From the NCBI GenBank assembly GCA_947177395.1, contig CAMWUI010000005.1:1-64000 (forward strand): DNA of 64,000 nucleotides, written 5' to 3'. Positions 24,780-50,620 of the stretch are shown one piece after another. A program made the translations under genes and the position numbers. The stretch comes from an uncultured Paraprevotella sp. GTDB lineage: Bacteria > Bacteroidota > Bacteroidia > Bacteroidales > Bacteroidaceae. Position 1 is the stretch's first letter, and every line of letters starts with the position of its first letter. A model generated the notes under the pieces. It did no database searches, was not told where the DNA came from, and worked only from the letters and a program-made list of their open reading frames with translations.

Positions 24780-25388
24780 ATGGCACTTATCAAATCACTC
24801 AAGGGGATGACCCCTAAATTCGGTAAACACTGCTACTTCTCCGAAGGAGCGGCCATCATCGGCGATGTCACGATGGGTGACGACTGTACGGTGTGGTTCA
24901 ATGCCGTCATACGTGGCGACGTACATTACATCAAGATGGGGGACCGCGTCAACATTCAGGACGGTTCCTGTCTTCACACCTTGTATCAGAAAGCCCCCAT
25001 CATCATTGGCGACGACGTAACCGTAGGACATAACGTCACACTGCACGGCTGCGAGATCAAGAGCGGCGCGCTCATCGGCATGGGTTCCACCATACTGGAC
25101 CACGCCGTAGTGGGACAGGGCGCCATCGTGGCAGCCGGAGCGCTGGTCCTGAAAAACACGGTAATCGGTGACGGTGAACTCTGGGGCGGTGTTCCGGCCA
25201 AATTTATCAAAAAAGTTGATCCGGAACAGGCCAAAGAACTGAATCAGGGATACGCACAGCATTACGTAATGTACTCTGACTGGTTCCGCGAGGCTGACAG
25301 TCACCCTGGAAACACGTGCTACTGCACCACGTCGGAGGAATACAATGAGGGGCGGAAGGCCCCCGAACCGGAACAAACGATACAATAA
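24780..25388 (+). CDS. gamma-carbonic anhydrase-like hexapeptide repeat protein
   Basis: A 202-aa left-handed beta-helix protein of the YrdA/PaaY group. It shows hexapeptide turns such as AIIGDVTMGDDCTVWFNAVI and IIIGDDVTVGHNVTLHGCEI. The candidate zinc His residues lie in VGHNVTLHGC and, near the N-terminal turns, RGDVHYIKMG. The C-terminal 50 residues form a helix plus a polar tail. Carbonic anhydrase activity in this group is variable, so the substrate is open. It starts 13 nt after pepP and ends before a strong terminator. Confidence 0.8.
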   Translation: MALIKSLKGMTPKFGKHCYFSEGAAIIGDVTMGDDCTVWFNAVIRGDVHYIKMGDRVNIQDGSCLHTLYQKAPIIIGDDVTVGHNVTLHGCEIKSGALIGMGSTILDHAVVGQGAIVAAGALVLKNTVIGDGELWGGVPAKFIKKVDPEQAKELNQGYAQHYVMYSDWFREADSHPGNTCYCTTSEEYNEGRKAPEPEQTIQ

Positions 25389-25454: not shown

Positions 25455-25578
25455 TTGTTTTTTTATTTCTATTCCCTTTTTTAACCTATTCCCGGAGGAT
25501 TCTTCTGTGGGAATATGCTCAATAGCAAATCCATGGGGAACATGTATTTGCCCGTTGAACGACAACCCTCCTTCTCTT

Positions 25579-25957
25579 CCTACACACATGTTTGCAGGAA
25601 AAGGCCTCAATGGTTCAGACTCACTGAATATCAATAAGTAATGGTTCACAAATGGTTCAGCAATGATTCAAACTCACTGGGAATCAATGAATAATGGTTC
25701 ATGAATTGCCGGTTGGGGCGCGCCTCAGCGGCCGTCCGCTGAACCATTGGGCGGAAAAACTGAAGGATGGCTGAACCATTTATCGCTGACAATCAAACAG
25801 TTTGAACCATTGAGACATTTTTCCGCCAACATGTGTGTAGGGAAACGGAAAAACTGAAGGATAAGTGAAGGAAAACTGAAGGATAGCTGAACCATTTGTC
25901 GCTGACTATCAAACAGTTTGAACCATTGAAGCCTTTTCTTGCAAACATGTGTGTAGG
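25579..25957. repeat. 379-bp element with 42-bp inverted repeat ends
   Basis: The ends (25579-25620 and 25916-25957) are inverted copies of a 42-bp sequence with three mismatches, containing CATGTGTGTAGG. A third, weaker copy lies inside at 25800-25841. The 9-mer AATGGTTCA occurs four times in the left half (25609, 25640, 25651, 25693). Its reverse complement TGAACCATT occurs five times in the right half (25740, 25772, 25803, 25888, 25919). The polarity flips around 25702-25739. Open frames across it only echo the repeats. It could be a MITE-like remnant or a structured intergenic element. Confidence 0.75.
25619..25701. repeat. 30-bp direct repeat pair in left arm
   Basis: Two related 30-bp copies beginning ACTCACTG and ending AATGGTTCA (about 25619-25648 and 25672-25701), 53 bp apart, with a few mismatches. 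Confidence 0.6.
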
Positions 25958-25959
25958 GA
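25757..25959. repeat. 87-bp direct repeat pair
   Basis: Positions 25757-25843 and 25873-25959 are two copies of equal length. Both run from AAACTGAAGGAT through TCAAACAGTTTGAACCATTG to ACATGTGTGTAGGGA. Extra copies of AAACTGAAGG sit between them at 25851 and 25873, 22 bp apart. Confidence 0.8.
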
Positions 25960-26000
25960 GGGGCGGAGACGGCCGCAGGCGACTTCCCGCCCGCAGGCGG

Positions 26001-26093
26001 TTCACTTGTCAAGTGGAACGCTGTTCACTTGTCGAGCCGTGTGCTGTTCACTTGTCGAGTGGAACGCTGTTCACTAAGGGTAGTGAAACGCTG
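26001..26093. repeat. 23-bp tandem array, family B
   Basis: Four head-to-tail units (26001, 26024, 26047, 26070), three of 23 bp and one of 24, all starting TTCACT and ending GCTG. The units carry dyads, and the last is a perfect hairpin, TTCACTA-AGGG-TAGTGAA (26070-26087). Confidence 0.8.
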
Positions 26094-26100
26094 TTCTTGT

Positions 26101-26215
26101 CTCCTTACGAATGCATTCCATACACCCTAAGGATAGTATTCCTTACACCCTTAAAAACGTATTCCTTAGCACCTTACGATAGTATTCGTTGCACCCTAAG
26201 GATAGTATTCCTAAG
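26101..26215. repeat. 22-24-bp tandem array, family C
   Basis: Five units (26101, 26123, 26146, 26170, 26192) of 22-24 bp, with consensus CACCCTAAGGATAGTATTCC and a partly palindromic core AAGGA...TTCCTT. The sequence is unrelated to the preceding family. Confidence 0.75.
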
Positions 26216-26221
26216 GATGCC

Positions 26222-26336
26222 ATTTCAGTTGGGATGAACAACTCATTTCAGTTGGAGTGACTACATTATCGCAGTTGGAATGGCAACCTTACTACAACTG
26301 CAATAACACTCTTCGGGTAGTTGGAATATACGAAAC
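26222..26336. repeat. 23-bp tandem array, family D
   Basis: Five diverged units in exact 23-bp register (26222, 26245, 26268, 26291, 26314) keep AGTTGG at the same phase. In the fourth it appears inverted (CAACTG). The first unit has the dyad AGTTG/CAACT. Confidence 0.65.
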
Positions 26337-26349
26337 GGAGTAAGTGCCA

Positions 26350-26384
26350 AGTGTCGAAAACAGTCGAAGAGTGTCGATGTTTTC
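26350..26384. repeat. short repeat pair with inverted arms
   Basis: AGTGTCGA occurs at 26350 and 26370, and GAAAACA/TGTTTTC (26356-26362 and 26378-26384) form inverted arms around them. This is a linker between the 23-bp families, with a 20-bp step. Confidence 0.45.
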
Positions 26385-26406
26385 AAGTTGGTTTTGTCGC
26401 ACCTTC

Positions 26407-26475
26407 ATTCAGTACTGAATGAGGGTGTAATGAAGCACTGAATGAGACCTTAATACAGCACTGAATGAAAATACG
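26407..26475. repeat. 23-bp tandem array, family E
   Basis: Three exact 23-bp units (26407, 26430, 26453) share ACTGAATGA. The first contains the perfect 14-bp palindrome ATTCAGTACTGAAT. Confidence 0.75.
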
Positions 26476-26550
26476 CCCAAATATGATATTACGAAGCTTG
26501 AGAACAAACAGAGGAACGAAACAACTACACTGGGCCTAAAAAACAGTGGA

Positions 26551-27774
26551 CTATATTTTAAAATCCACCGCACGGAACACGGCATCTGCCGCTCCGGCAT
26601 TCTGCTCTATATAATTCTTGCCGACGGAGCCGCATTGCCGACGGAATGCCCCGTCAGTCAACAGTCTGTCTACCGTCCCGTCAAACGATTTCTTGTCTGT
26701 TACCTCAAAACACCCTCCGGCACGCAACAGATCTTGTGCTTCCCGGAAATCCTTGTTATTCGGCCCTATCAGCACCGGAACGCCATAGACCGCCGCCTCG
26801 GGTACATTGTGTATGCCGGCACCGAAACCACCGCCCACATAGGCAATCTCTCCATAACGGTAAATGGAAGACAAGAGACCGAAACAGTCGATAATGAGAC
26901 AGTCGGCCTGGGCTACATTGTCTGCCGTCACGGCGGAATAACGCAGGGAGGGACGCTGCAGCTTGGATTCGATTTCGCACAGATGGTTCTCGCCGATAAC
27001 GTGAGGAGCTATAATCAGTTTCAGCTCCGGATGACTGTTGAAATACGGAATAATCAAGTCTTCATCCGGCGGCCACGAACTTCCGGCCACGAACACGACA
27101 TGCTCTCCCTTGAACTGCTGTATCAGAGGCAGATGTCTGGCCTGTCTGCAAATGTCTATCACCCGGTCAAACCGCGTATCCCCCACGACGGAAGCATTCA
27201 TCAGCCCCAGCGTAGCCAGCAATTCCCGTGAGGCCTCGTTCTGTACGAAGAAATGTGTGATGCAATCCAAGACACGGGCATAACCGCGGCCGTACCAACG
27301 GAAAAACACCTGATCCGGACGGAAAATACTGCTCACGCTGTATACGGGAATACCCCGACGGTGACAGGCCTTCAGATAGTTTTGCCAGAATTCATACTTG
27401 ATGAAGAAAGCCATGCAGGGACGGGCCAGCCGCAAAAAGCTATGCACGTTGCCCGGCGTGTCGAAAGGAAGATAACACACCACGTCCGCTCCGGCATAAT
27501 GCTTGCGTACCTCATAGCCGGAGGGGGAAAAGAATGTCAGCAGAATCTTAAACTCGGGATGCTCGCGGCGCAACCGCTCGATGAGCGGCCTTCCTTGTTC
27601 GAACTCTCCCAACGAAGCCGCATGGAACCATACATATTTCTCACCGGGACGGATACGCTCCCGCAGGATACGGAACGTGTTCCAGTGTCCCTTCACCATC
27701 AGGCGCGCTTTCTTATGGAAGAGAGCCGCCACGATGACTGCAAACATGTACAGGTATAAAGCTATGGTGTACAT
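26551..27774 (-). CDS. waaA: 3-deoxy-D-manno-octulosonic acid transferase (Kdo transferase)
   Basis: A 407-aa GT30 enzyme that adds Kdo from CMP-Kdo to lipid IVA on the inner face of the inner membrane. The N-terminal anchor is [19 protein letters not shown], and the family motif VWFHAASLGEFEQGRPLIE follows. The C-terminal GT-B domain has AYVGGGFGAGIHNVPEAAVY. The start is the ATG at 27774, which overlaps the gltX stop as TGATG; the GTG one codon earlier is less likely. Translation is probably coupled to gltX. The gene ends next to the repeat-rich region. Confidence 0.95.
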   Translation of the reverse strand: MYTIALYLYMFAVIVAALFHKKARLMVKGHWNTFRILRERIRPGEKYVWFHAASLGEFEQGRPLIERLRREHPEFKILLTFFSPSGYEVRKHYAGADVVCYLPFDTPGNVHSFLRLARPCMAFFIKYEFWQNYLKACHRRGIPVYSVSSIFRPDQVFFRWYGRGYARVLDCITHFFVQNEASRELLATLGLMNASVVGDTRFDRVIDICRQARHLPLIQQFKGEHVVFVAGSSWPPDEDLIIPYFNSHPELKLIIAPHVIGENHLCEIESKLQRPSLRYSAVTADNVAQADCLIIDCFGLLSSIYRYGEIAYVGGGFGAGIHNVPEAAVYGVPVLIGPNNKDFREAQDLLRAGGCFEVTDKKSFDGTVDRLLTDGAFRRQCGSVGKNYIEQNAGAADAVFRAVDFKI

Positions 27775-29291
27775 CACTTCAGCACTTCGATGGCACGGTA
27801 CATGCGCCGCAACGTTTCTTCCTTACCCAGAAAAGCGGAAATGTCGAACATGTGGGGACCCTTGCCTTCGCCCACCAGCGTGAGACGCCAGGCATTCATG
27901 ATGTTGCCCATGTGGAACCCATTATCCTCGATCCATTTCGTCACCACTTCTTCCTGATGCTCCAGAGAGAAATCGTCCAACCCCTCCAACACGGCGGCCA
28001 GCCGGGTCATGTCTTCGGCCGAAGTCTCTTTCCAACGCTTCTTCACCGTCTTTTCGTCATATTCCGCCGGAGCCTCAAAGAAAAAACGGCACAGCGGCAT
28101 CAGTTCCTTGACAAAATTCACGCGTCCTTTCATCAGTCCCACAACCGTCACAATGCGATCTATCGGTTCATCAAAACCGTTCTCTTTCAGAATAACCTCA
28201 AAATGACGGGCTATTTCCTCGTCACTCTTCTGCAGTATATACTCATGGTTGAACCACGTACCTTTCACATAGTCGAATCTGGCACCGGCCTTGCTGCATT
28301 TCGTTATGTCGAACAGGCGTACCATCTCGTCCAGCGACATAATCTCCTGCTCCGTTCCGGGATTCCATCCCAACAAGGCAAGGAAATTGAGCACAGCCTC
28401 CGGAAGGTAACCGCTCTCCCGATAACCGGAAGACACCTCGCCGGTCTTGGGATCGTGCCACTCCAACGGAAAAACAGGAAATCCCAGACGGTCGCCGTCA
28501 CGCTTGCTGAGTTTCCCCTTGCCGTCCGGTTTCAGCAACAAAGGCAGATGAGCGAAACGGGGCATCGTATCAGCCCAGCCGAAAGCCCGATAGAGCAACA
28601 CATGCAACGGAGCCGAGGGCAACCATTCTTCTCCACGGATCACGTGGGTCACTTCCATCAGATGGTCGTCCACAATATTGGCCAGATGGTAAGTGGGCAA
28701 CTGGTCGGCAGACTTATAGAGGACCTTGTCATCCAGAATGGAAGAGTTTATAACCACATCGCCGCGTATCAGATCGTCAATGTGCACGTCTTCGTCGGGT
28801 TCCACCTTGAAACGCACTACATACTGATGGCCGGCATCCAGCAAAGCTTTTACTTCGCTGTCAGACAAAGACAGGGAATTCCTCATCCCCAGACGGGTGG
28901 AAGCGTCATACTGGAAGTTCTTCACTTCGTTCCGCTTCGCATCCAGTTCTTCCGGTGTGTCGAACGCCACATAAGCCTTGCCGTCCGCCAGTAACTGGTC
29001 CACATATTTCTTATAAATGTCGCGCCGTTCCGACTGACGGTAAGGACCGTGATTTCCGCCGAAACTCACTCCTTCATCGAATTCAATGCCCAACCACCGG
29101 AAAGACTCGATGATATATTCTTCCGCCCCCGGCACGAACCGGGTGGAATCAGTGTCCTCGATACGGAATATCAGTTCTCCTCCGTGCTGACGGGCAAACA
29201 AATAATTATATAAAGCCGTACGCACCCCGCCGATATGCAAAGCCCCTGTGGGACTGGGAGCAAAACGGACTCTTACCTTTCTTTCTGTCAT
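27774..29291 (-). CDS. gltX: glutamyl-tRNA synthetase
   Basis: A 505-aa class I synthetase charging tRNA-Glu. The HIGH box is in [18 protein letters not shown] and the KMSKS counterpart is KLSKRDGD. Length and the anticodon-binding C-terminus match bacterial GltX. No separate Gln synthetase is seen in this window, so I cannot say whether it is discriminating. It overlaps waaA by TGATG and is divergent from the 7TM-HD gene. Confidence 0.97.
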
Positions 29292-50403: not shown

Positions 50404-50541
50404 CAACAGTTATGATAAGACTGTGCCAACAGTCATCATACGACTGTCGCAACAGTCATCATACGACTGTCGCAACAGTCATCATACAACCGTCGCAATA
50501 GTTATCATACAACCGTCGCAATAGTTATCATACAACCGCCG
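50404..50541. repeat. 23-bp tandem array, six units
   Basis: Six exact-length 23-bp units start at 50404, 50427, 50450, 50473, 50496 and 50519, with a decaying seventh at 50542. Units 2 and 3 are identical and contain the dyad ACAGTC-ATCATAC-GACTGT. Units 4-6 have lost the right arm. Another decayed piece (ACAGTCATACGACCG) lies near 50593. It sits between two convergent genes and their terminators. Confidence 0.9.
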
Positions 50542-50620
50542 CAACAGTTATTCACGCGACGCAACGATAACGGTACGGAAATATTCACGCATACAGTCAT
50601 ACGACCGCCCCGAACGCAAA

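Follow-up and report, generated by a model that had tools for sequence, protein, structure and literature searches.

Neighbouring tandem arrays of unlike sequence and common 23-bp period in a Paraprevotella genome

Why should tandem arrays that differ in sequence stand side by side in one intergenic region and step by the same number of base pairs? The question is raised by about 475 bp (26001-26475) of a 64,000-nucleotide stretch of DNA (the window) on contig 5 of the draft genome of an uncultured Paraprevotella sp. (G000; 2.65 Mb, 72 contigs, 87.7% complete). A preliminary description, made from the letters alone, had seen there a series of unlike families with one period, dyad units and no named counterpart, and had considered that some process fixes the unit length.

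The arrays and their leader

The consecutive unlike families stepping by about 23 bp are confirmed, and there are four of them. In an autocorrelation, 26001-26475 is most similar to itself at lag 23 (52% identity, z 14.2), with a second peak at lag 46 (z 9.1), against a null of 200 dinucleotide shuffles over lags 1-60 in which the largest z was 3.8. The same lag leads in each sub-region, with z of 6.6 at 26001-26100, 8.4 at 26101-26221 and 7.7 at 26222-26345; at 26345-26490, the part that holds the weakest family, the peak is marginal by autocorrelation alone (z 3.9, shuffle maximum 4.4), and the period is also backed by TRF and by longer arrays of this family in other copies. TRF places period-23 arrays at 26000-26075, 26115-26212 and 26414-26468. 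We delimit the arrays, all on the forward strand and with units of 23 bp, as A (25998-26096, unit about GCTGTTCACTTGTCGAGTGGAGT), B (26100-26230, unit about TATTCCTTAGCACCTTACGATAG), C (26222-26323, unit about CATTTCAGTTGGAATGACAACAT) and D, the weakest (26402-26485, unit about AGCACTGAATGAGACCTTAATAC). Family A comprises 102 units at 34 loci (counted on the element strand), B 142 units at 33 loci, C 35 at 16 and D 40 at nine. Successive units follow one another directly, head to tail, every 23 bp; a CRISPR array was rejected on the grounds that no unique spacers separate them. Further along the window, at 50404-50548 on the forward strand, stands array E (unit CAACAGTCATCATACGACTGTCG; found by TRF, lag 23 z 15.1), a separate dispersed 23-bp family that has 12 matches in the genome, is unlike A-D and has no leader visible beside it.

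Best circular matches among A, B, C, D and E reach the level of shuffled units, and words shared between families are about as frequent as with reversed units, save for a few 9- to 10-mers. Exceptions are a family F that resembles an array of Mediterranea, and a weak link between E and a family H. Beyond these exceptions, neither circular alignment nor shared words gave any sign that the families descend from a single 23-mer. Because no common descent of the 23-bp families is visible, the length that they share in one clade is not trivially explained. The 10-mer ATGTACACGT is common to 23-bp arrays of two genera, at L122 (87-164) in Mediterranea and in F-type arrays of G016.

The arrays lie where the preliminary description had put them, but the feature also reaches left to about 25,570, and the whole is one copy of a dispersed repeat. 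This element (about 25,570-26,490) begins with a foldback leader and has arrays A-D as its tail. The leader (about 25578-25968, forward strand) was recognised by its dispersal in the genome, by copy alignments and by a TRF period of 11/22. Its left arm (25568-25660, 93 nt) is 75% complementary to its right arm (25876-25968), outside which the arrays sit; the arm end CTACACACATGTTTGC lies at 25580, and the arm-end pattern matches at 25580-25602 in the left arm and at 25934-25956 in the right. Within the leader, 25756-25843 is partially duplicated at 25872-25959. TRF also reports 11-bp repeats within it at 25640-25670 and 25852-25891; 22 is twice 11.

The gap that holds the element measures 1162 bp and is bounded on the left by a hexapeptide-repeat protein gene (24780-25388, forward strand; Pfam Hexapep), which we take to be YrdA-like, and on the right by a KDO transferase gene (kdtA/waaA; 26551-27777, reverse strand; PF04413). 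The two ORFs in this gap (95 and 113 aa) have no Pfam match. A hexapeptide-repeat gene adjoins kdtA in 20 of 80 kdtA loci, and the gap between the two is 54-261 bp in 13 of these loci and 571-2839 bp in the other seven. The short gaps of the 13 loci, against 1162 bp here, speak for an insertion at this site. At four of the 80 (L055, L062, L064 and L066), arrays of 21-22 bp adjoin the 3' side of kdtA, which may for this reason be a favoured array site.

Each family's units had been thought to contain an inverted repeat. This does not hold for every family and stands as a tendency: 12 of 30 unit consensuses (22-24 bp, from several genomes and not all independent) reach p<0.05, with a combined p of 2e-10, in a test that scored loops of 3-10 nt only and left loopless palindromes uncounted. 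By family, p is 0.012 for A, 0.07 for C, 0.84 for B and 0.92 for D. The perfect palindrome ATTCAGTACTGAAT is present, but only at 26407-26420, the head of D. Paired covariation was rejected as proof of a hairpin: in sets of distinct units (83 for A, 90 for B, 25 for C and 24 for D) no axis has a convincing excess, and the sole signal is pair 7-17 of family A (z 4.6). At 11 of 60 arrays a flank matches the unit in reverse complement at 14 or more of 18 positions, exceeding the array's own palindromy; in the control, which gave each array 12 borrowed flanks, the best score was at least 14 for 10% of arrays. Such an inverted edge unit is clearest in D-type arrays (L297 1481-1568, L300 1523-1635 and 26402-26430 of the window), where it gives a long hairpin. 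In a relative, G008, 22-bp arrays (L183, L209, L210, L212, L214, L215 and L217) consist of near-perfect hairpins (GTACTTTGCGGCAAGTACTCGA) whose units run in either orientation, and two other relatives, G001 and G002, have cores (TTGCGGCAA and TTGCGCAA) similar to these, with different stems.

Copies within the genome

Within its own genome the tail, the right half of the element, is matched at least 60 times at E<=1e-3 (with 40 of 75 candidates scored); the leader, its left half, is matched 94 times, arm-to-arm matches included; and the arm-end pattern has 34 exact matches against none in the reversed control. Modules occur in the copies either singly or joined, and when joined they follow the order leader, A, B, C, D. 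Left ends of copies start at the arm end and right ends are ragged, and no tail module was recognised beyond the arrays in the copy alignments. Identity among copies is 69-94% over the longer matches. By our own ORF heuristic the copies are intergenic, and 30 of them show no orientation bias (4 convergent, 12 tandem, 8 divergent and 6 undecided). Many sit at contig ends of the draft genomes. At L291 (447-2237), two arms of 86 nt, 86% complementary, enclose a DUF1846 gene that is absent from seven other genomes of the genus, and A- and B-type arrays then follow.

Two transposase families, Y1 and DDE_Tnp_1, were searched for, and both were set aside as partners of the element. Y1_Tnp (PF01797) has no match in the draft genome (87.7% complete), in a search that was positive in five of 14 control genomes, and DDE_Tnp_1 has five matches, none of them near the 34 arm-end matches. 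Plasmids, phages and, for two patterns, IMG/VR contigs gave no match. No gene recurs beside the arrays, the clusters being orthologous sites apart from a trio of related genes in G008 and a single pair, and no binding protein was found among the neighbours of arrays.

Gain and loss of whole units, to which the preliminary description had pointed, is seen between copies in one genome, the comparison on which it was checked. Measured from where A begins to where B ends, the 22 loci that have both landmarks span 182-275 bp, with a residue of 21, 22, 0 or 1 modulo 23 in all 22. The D array of the window, at 53 bp, is exactly three units shorter than the 122-bp D arrays of L009, L010 and L011. An earlier set of A+B lengths had 14 of 15 on residues 12-15 modulo 23; the fifteenth is the window copy, with residue 7 because its start landmark was matched earlier. 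For block C, L021 departs from this pattern: its 126 bp differ from the 90 bp of six other copies by a length that is not a multiple of the unit. Gap lengths between copies have a local peak at 23 (192 of 2608; 65 at 24 and eight at 22), but very short gaps, of 1, 2 and 3 bp, are more frequent still (611, 404 and 236) and fall partly within a spacer. Small gaps were rejected as a measure of constraint because a GC-rich spacer and the misalignment of units confound them, and landmark distances were used instead. Unit-wise change is expected of any tandem repeat and leaves the choice of 23 unexplained.

Orthologous sites and unit length among relatives

Among 41 chosen relatives the element matched only in G000 and G016 (at most 12 candidates scored per genome; absence is weak evidence), and among 399 genomes of the family it matched in at least seven, five of them through short matches (two candidates scored per genome; absence is again weak). 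In a tree of GltX only, G000 and G016 are sisters (95/94), and 16 other rows of the genus form one group (100/99) without G011. The position of G011 beside the sisters is not fixed by this tree; identity is 94% for G016, 89% for G011 and 76-80% for the others. Two genomes of the genus group share an identical GltX with the Paraprevotella MAGs RGIG8997 and RGIG9451, which makes Paraprevotella the probable genus.

At the orthologous yrdA-kdtA site of G016 (L267), arms of 84 nt at 557-640 and 1081-1164 are 96% complementary, and 23-bp arrays stand at 881-947, between the arms, and at 1262-1367, after a spacer and before kdtA. The leader arms of the window and of G016 align (79% over 63 nt, E 2.5e-11), and the arrays of the window give no alignment to L267 (best E 0.05). 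Replacement in place between species, another kind of change that had been foreseen, is seen here: a homologous leader and the same layout, with unrelated 23-bp arrays. Since copies within the genome are alike and the window arrays are unlike the sister ortholog, the arrays have probably been homogenised or replaced from within the genome. The yrdA-kdtA site of G011 is short and has no leader; it contains hairpins, and inspection by eye shows GCTCG/GAGC motifs at a spacing of about 22-23 bp.

A second site common to G000 and G016, flanked by what we take to be a hexosaminidase gene and tRNA-Pro/aroA, has a 23-bp array in each genome, with different letters. Fourteen array sites are comparable between the two genomes, and three clear ones plus one degenerate are shared. 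They comprise two of the five sites of a first set (kdtA and aroA) and, from a second set (15 flank pieces prepared, 13 searched, nine with an ortholog), one of nine with a clear 23-bp array in G016 and one degenerate, below the density threshold. The array density of G016 predicts 0.25 shared sites per 14, so that P for three or more is 0.002; without the kdtA site, which was not blind, two clear sites in 13 give a P of about 0.02 (by hand). None of 51 gene flanks that are array-free in G000 has an array in G016, and leader arms were found in G016 at none of the nine second-set sites. Array sites are shared above chance, yet the majority are not shared.

The excess of period 23 expected elsewhere in the genome was found: over lags 20-25, 400 kb of G000 hold eight arrays at 23, three at 22, three at 24 and one at 21. 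All six arrays in 400 kb of G016 (lags 12-40) are at 23, and each of these samples is about 15% of its genome. Block-shuffled DNA of the same 400 kb gave no array, nor did 200 kb of E. coli K-12. Over lags 12-40, the sample of G001 has four arrays at 22, one at 21 and one at 24; that of G002, three at 22 and one at 21; that of G008, nine at 22 and one at 24; and that of G019, five at 22 and three at 21. A sample from another genus has one at 22, and one from another family two at 22 and one at 21. G011 has one array at 23 and, with longer lags allowed, one more segment at lag 44, and the 80 kdtA loci hold seven arrays at 22, one at 23 and one at 21. Counts of 23 against 22 are 14:3 in G000 and G016 together versus 0:24 in the other sampled relatives; the p of 1.9e-8 for this contrast, taken without arrays at 21 and 24 and without the 80 kdtA loci, is overstated, as arrays of one family recur in a genome (in G008, for example). 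By our own grouping the clade holds about nine 23-bp families: A, B, C, D, E and H in G000, F and G in G016, and X in G011.

The interpretation in the preliminary description is supported in part, but a single length fixed genome-wide is not supported. Family A is found at 23 and at 24, and G000 also has clear 22-bp arrays (L145, for example). Elsewhere in the bacterial family, in a different genus, arrays of A and D type stay at 23 or 23/24; one of them, the 23/24-bp array of L298, lies within 0.3 kb of a 22-bp array whose repeat family is another. Length seems to go with family first. Bacteroidales samples of about 2.8 Mb contain 64 arrays that lie outside long open frames; 37 of them have a period of 21-24 bp and nine a period of 44, 46 or 48, a further 34 arrays within open frames of at least 150 codons having been set aside. 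This dominance of 21-24 bp, together with the lack of arrays in the E. coli K-12 and shuffled DNA, suggests a weak length constraint.

Explanations and known systems

We propose that the element is a dispersed, non-coding, MITE-like composite resembling BrickBuilt, in which a foldback leader is joined to satellite-like blocks that are homogenised within a genome and replaced between species. We give this reading a probability of about 0.55. Blocks would grow and shrink in whole units by slippage or unequal recombination, and copies within a genome would be homogenised or replaced from one another, a form of concerted evolution. Letters would turn over between species, with each family carrying its own unit length. 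That length may be held near 21-24 bp by a weak constraint, for which a bound protein and the slippage of hairpin-prone DNA are candidates. Judged from the arms, dispersal by a transposase in trans is plausible; that the element moves, or moved, through a transposase acting on its arm ends is the step that we hold most loosely.

The shared length could instead come from a ruler acting in trans, a protein or nucleoprotein filament that places one dimer on each unit and selects the spacing, 23 bp here and 22 bp in relatives, whatever the letters. The clade contrast of 14:3 against 0:24 (p 1.9e-8), the one G011 array at 23, the dyad tendency of the units and the nine families that we group at 23 in G000, G016 and G011 would all fit such a ruler. 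However, the p-value is overstated, the arrays of each genome being copies of few families; family A occurs at both 23 and 24; 22-bp arrays are present in G000 and stand beside 23/24-bp arrays in L298; the 80 kdtA loci hold seven arrays at 22 with one at 23 and one at 21; and no motif is common to the families. We consider the ruler unlikely, and are equally doubtful of the more general proposition that some cellular process sets array unit length independently of sequence (23 bp in one Paraprevotella clade, 22 bp in relatives) with letters replaceable wholesale. Independent minisatellites might also have arrived at one length by coincidence, 21-24 bp being usual in these genomes and a common class across the Bacteroidales samples. 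Yet 23 versus 22 follows clade, and G016 clearly has arrays at three of the sites against an expectation of 0.25 per 14 (one of the three, kdtA, being the initial finding), and coincidence is in our judgement improbable.

Target-site duplication offers an analogy for a different origin, in which an enzyme would cut the two strands with a stagger of 22-23 nt, and fill-in would duplicate exactly that length, whatever the sequence, and seed arrays. This would account for one length with unlike letters and for the one-base clade difference, but lengths of 22 and 24 also occur in G000, and we regard it as very improbable. REP and BIME repeats are dispersed intergenic palindromic units, and their mobilisation by a RAYT (Y1) transposase would suit intergenic, dispersed, hairpin-prone units with inverted units at some array edges. 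This explanation is hardly credible here: the draft genome (87.7% complete) has no Y1_Tnp (PF01797) match, and several families are without significant hairpins. Unlike REP/BIME, the arrays run head to tail with one fixed period.

The composite that we favour invites comparison with eukaryotic satellite DNA, whose sequence turns over between species while its monomer length tends to persist and its copies are homogenised within a genome; here, by contrast, units are 22-23 bp, arrays are short and lie in bacterial intergenic regions, and there are no nucleosomes. If replacement in place at constant length is general, it would provide a small and genetically simple model of satellite DNA turnover, and if sequence-independent length setting is true, it would be a bacterial counterpart of the monomer-length constraint on satellites. 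The one-base clade difference is a handle on whether unit length is a property of the array or of its host.

The preliminary description knew of no named element like this one, but BrickBuilt is close. In the available part of its published account, BrickBuilt is a MITE of Porphyromonas gingivalis that contains a minisatellite of 23-nt units and has 19 intergenic copies (PMC4596501); two further papers mention it in the parts available (PMC5771137, PMC10969869), and a literature search that mostly covered journals open without subscription gave no other description of such arrays. Like the element here, it is intergenic and dispersed, consists of 23-nt direct repeats without spacers and has no coding capacity; its unit number varies between loci and strains, and it has partial copies and inverted-repeat ends (PMC4596501). 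In that same part of the account, the BrickBuilt repeats lie between flanking leader and tail modules, whereas here they lie outside the leader's inverted repeat; BrickBuilt has one unit family (AGAYCATARTATCCTCTCRTRTG), here several unlike families stand in a row; and its ends are GAGACCTTTGCA (IS5-like), against arm ends of CTACACACATGTTTGC here. The BrickBuilt unit, a consensus from the available part of PMC4596501 whose degenerate letters we resolved ourselves, matched none of 25 other units at 13 or more of 23 positions in any rotation on either strand (null mean 10.6). MITE464/PgRS of P. gingivalis is, in the part of the account at hand, likewise a MITE with tandem repeats and repetitive flanks, with units of 41 nt rather than 23 bp (PMC4596501). 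Judged from the sequences and from what is available of that account, the element is of the same sort as BrickBuilt but not of the same family, since unit sequence, ends and layout differ. The comparison links BrickBuilt, described there for one genus, to the 21-24 bp array class in samples of several Bacteroidales genomes. What is new here is that several unlike families of equal length stand in a row, that the arrays at an orthologous site differ between species, and that clades divide between 22 and 23 bp.
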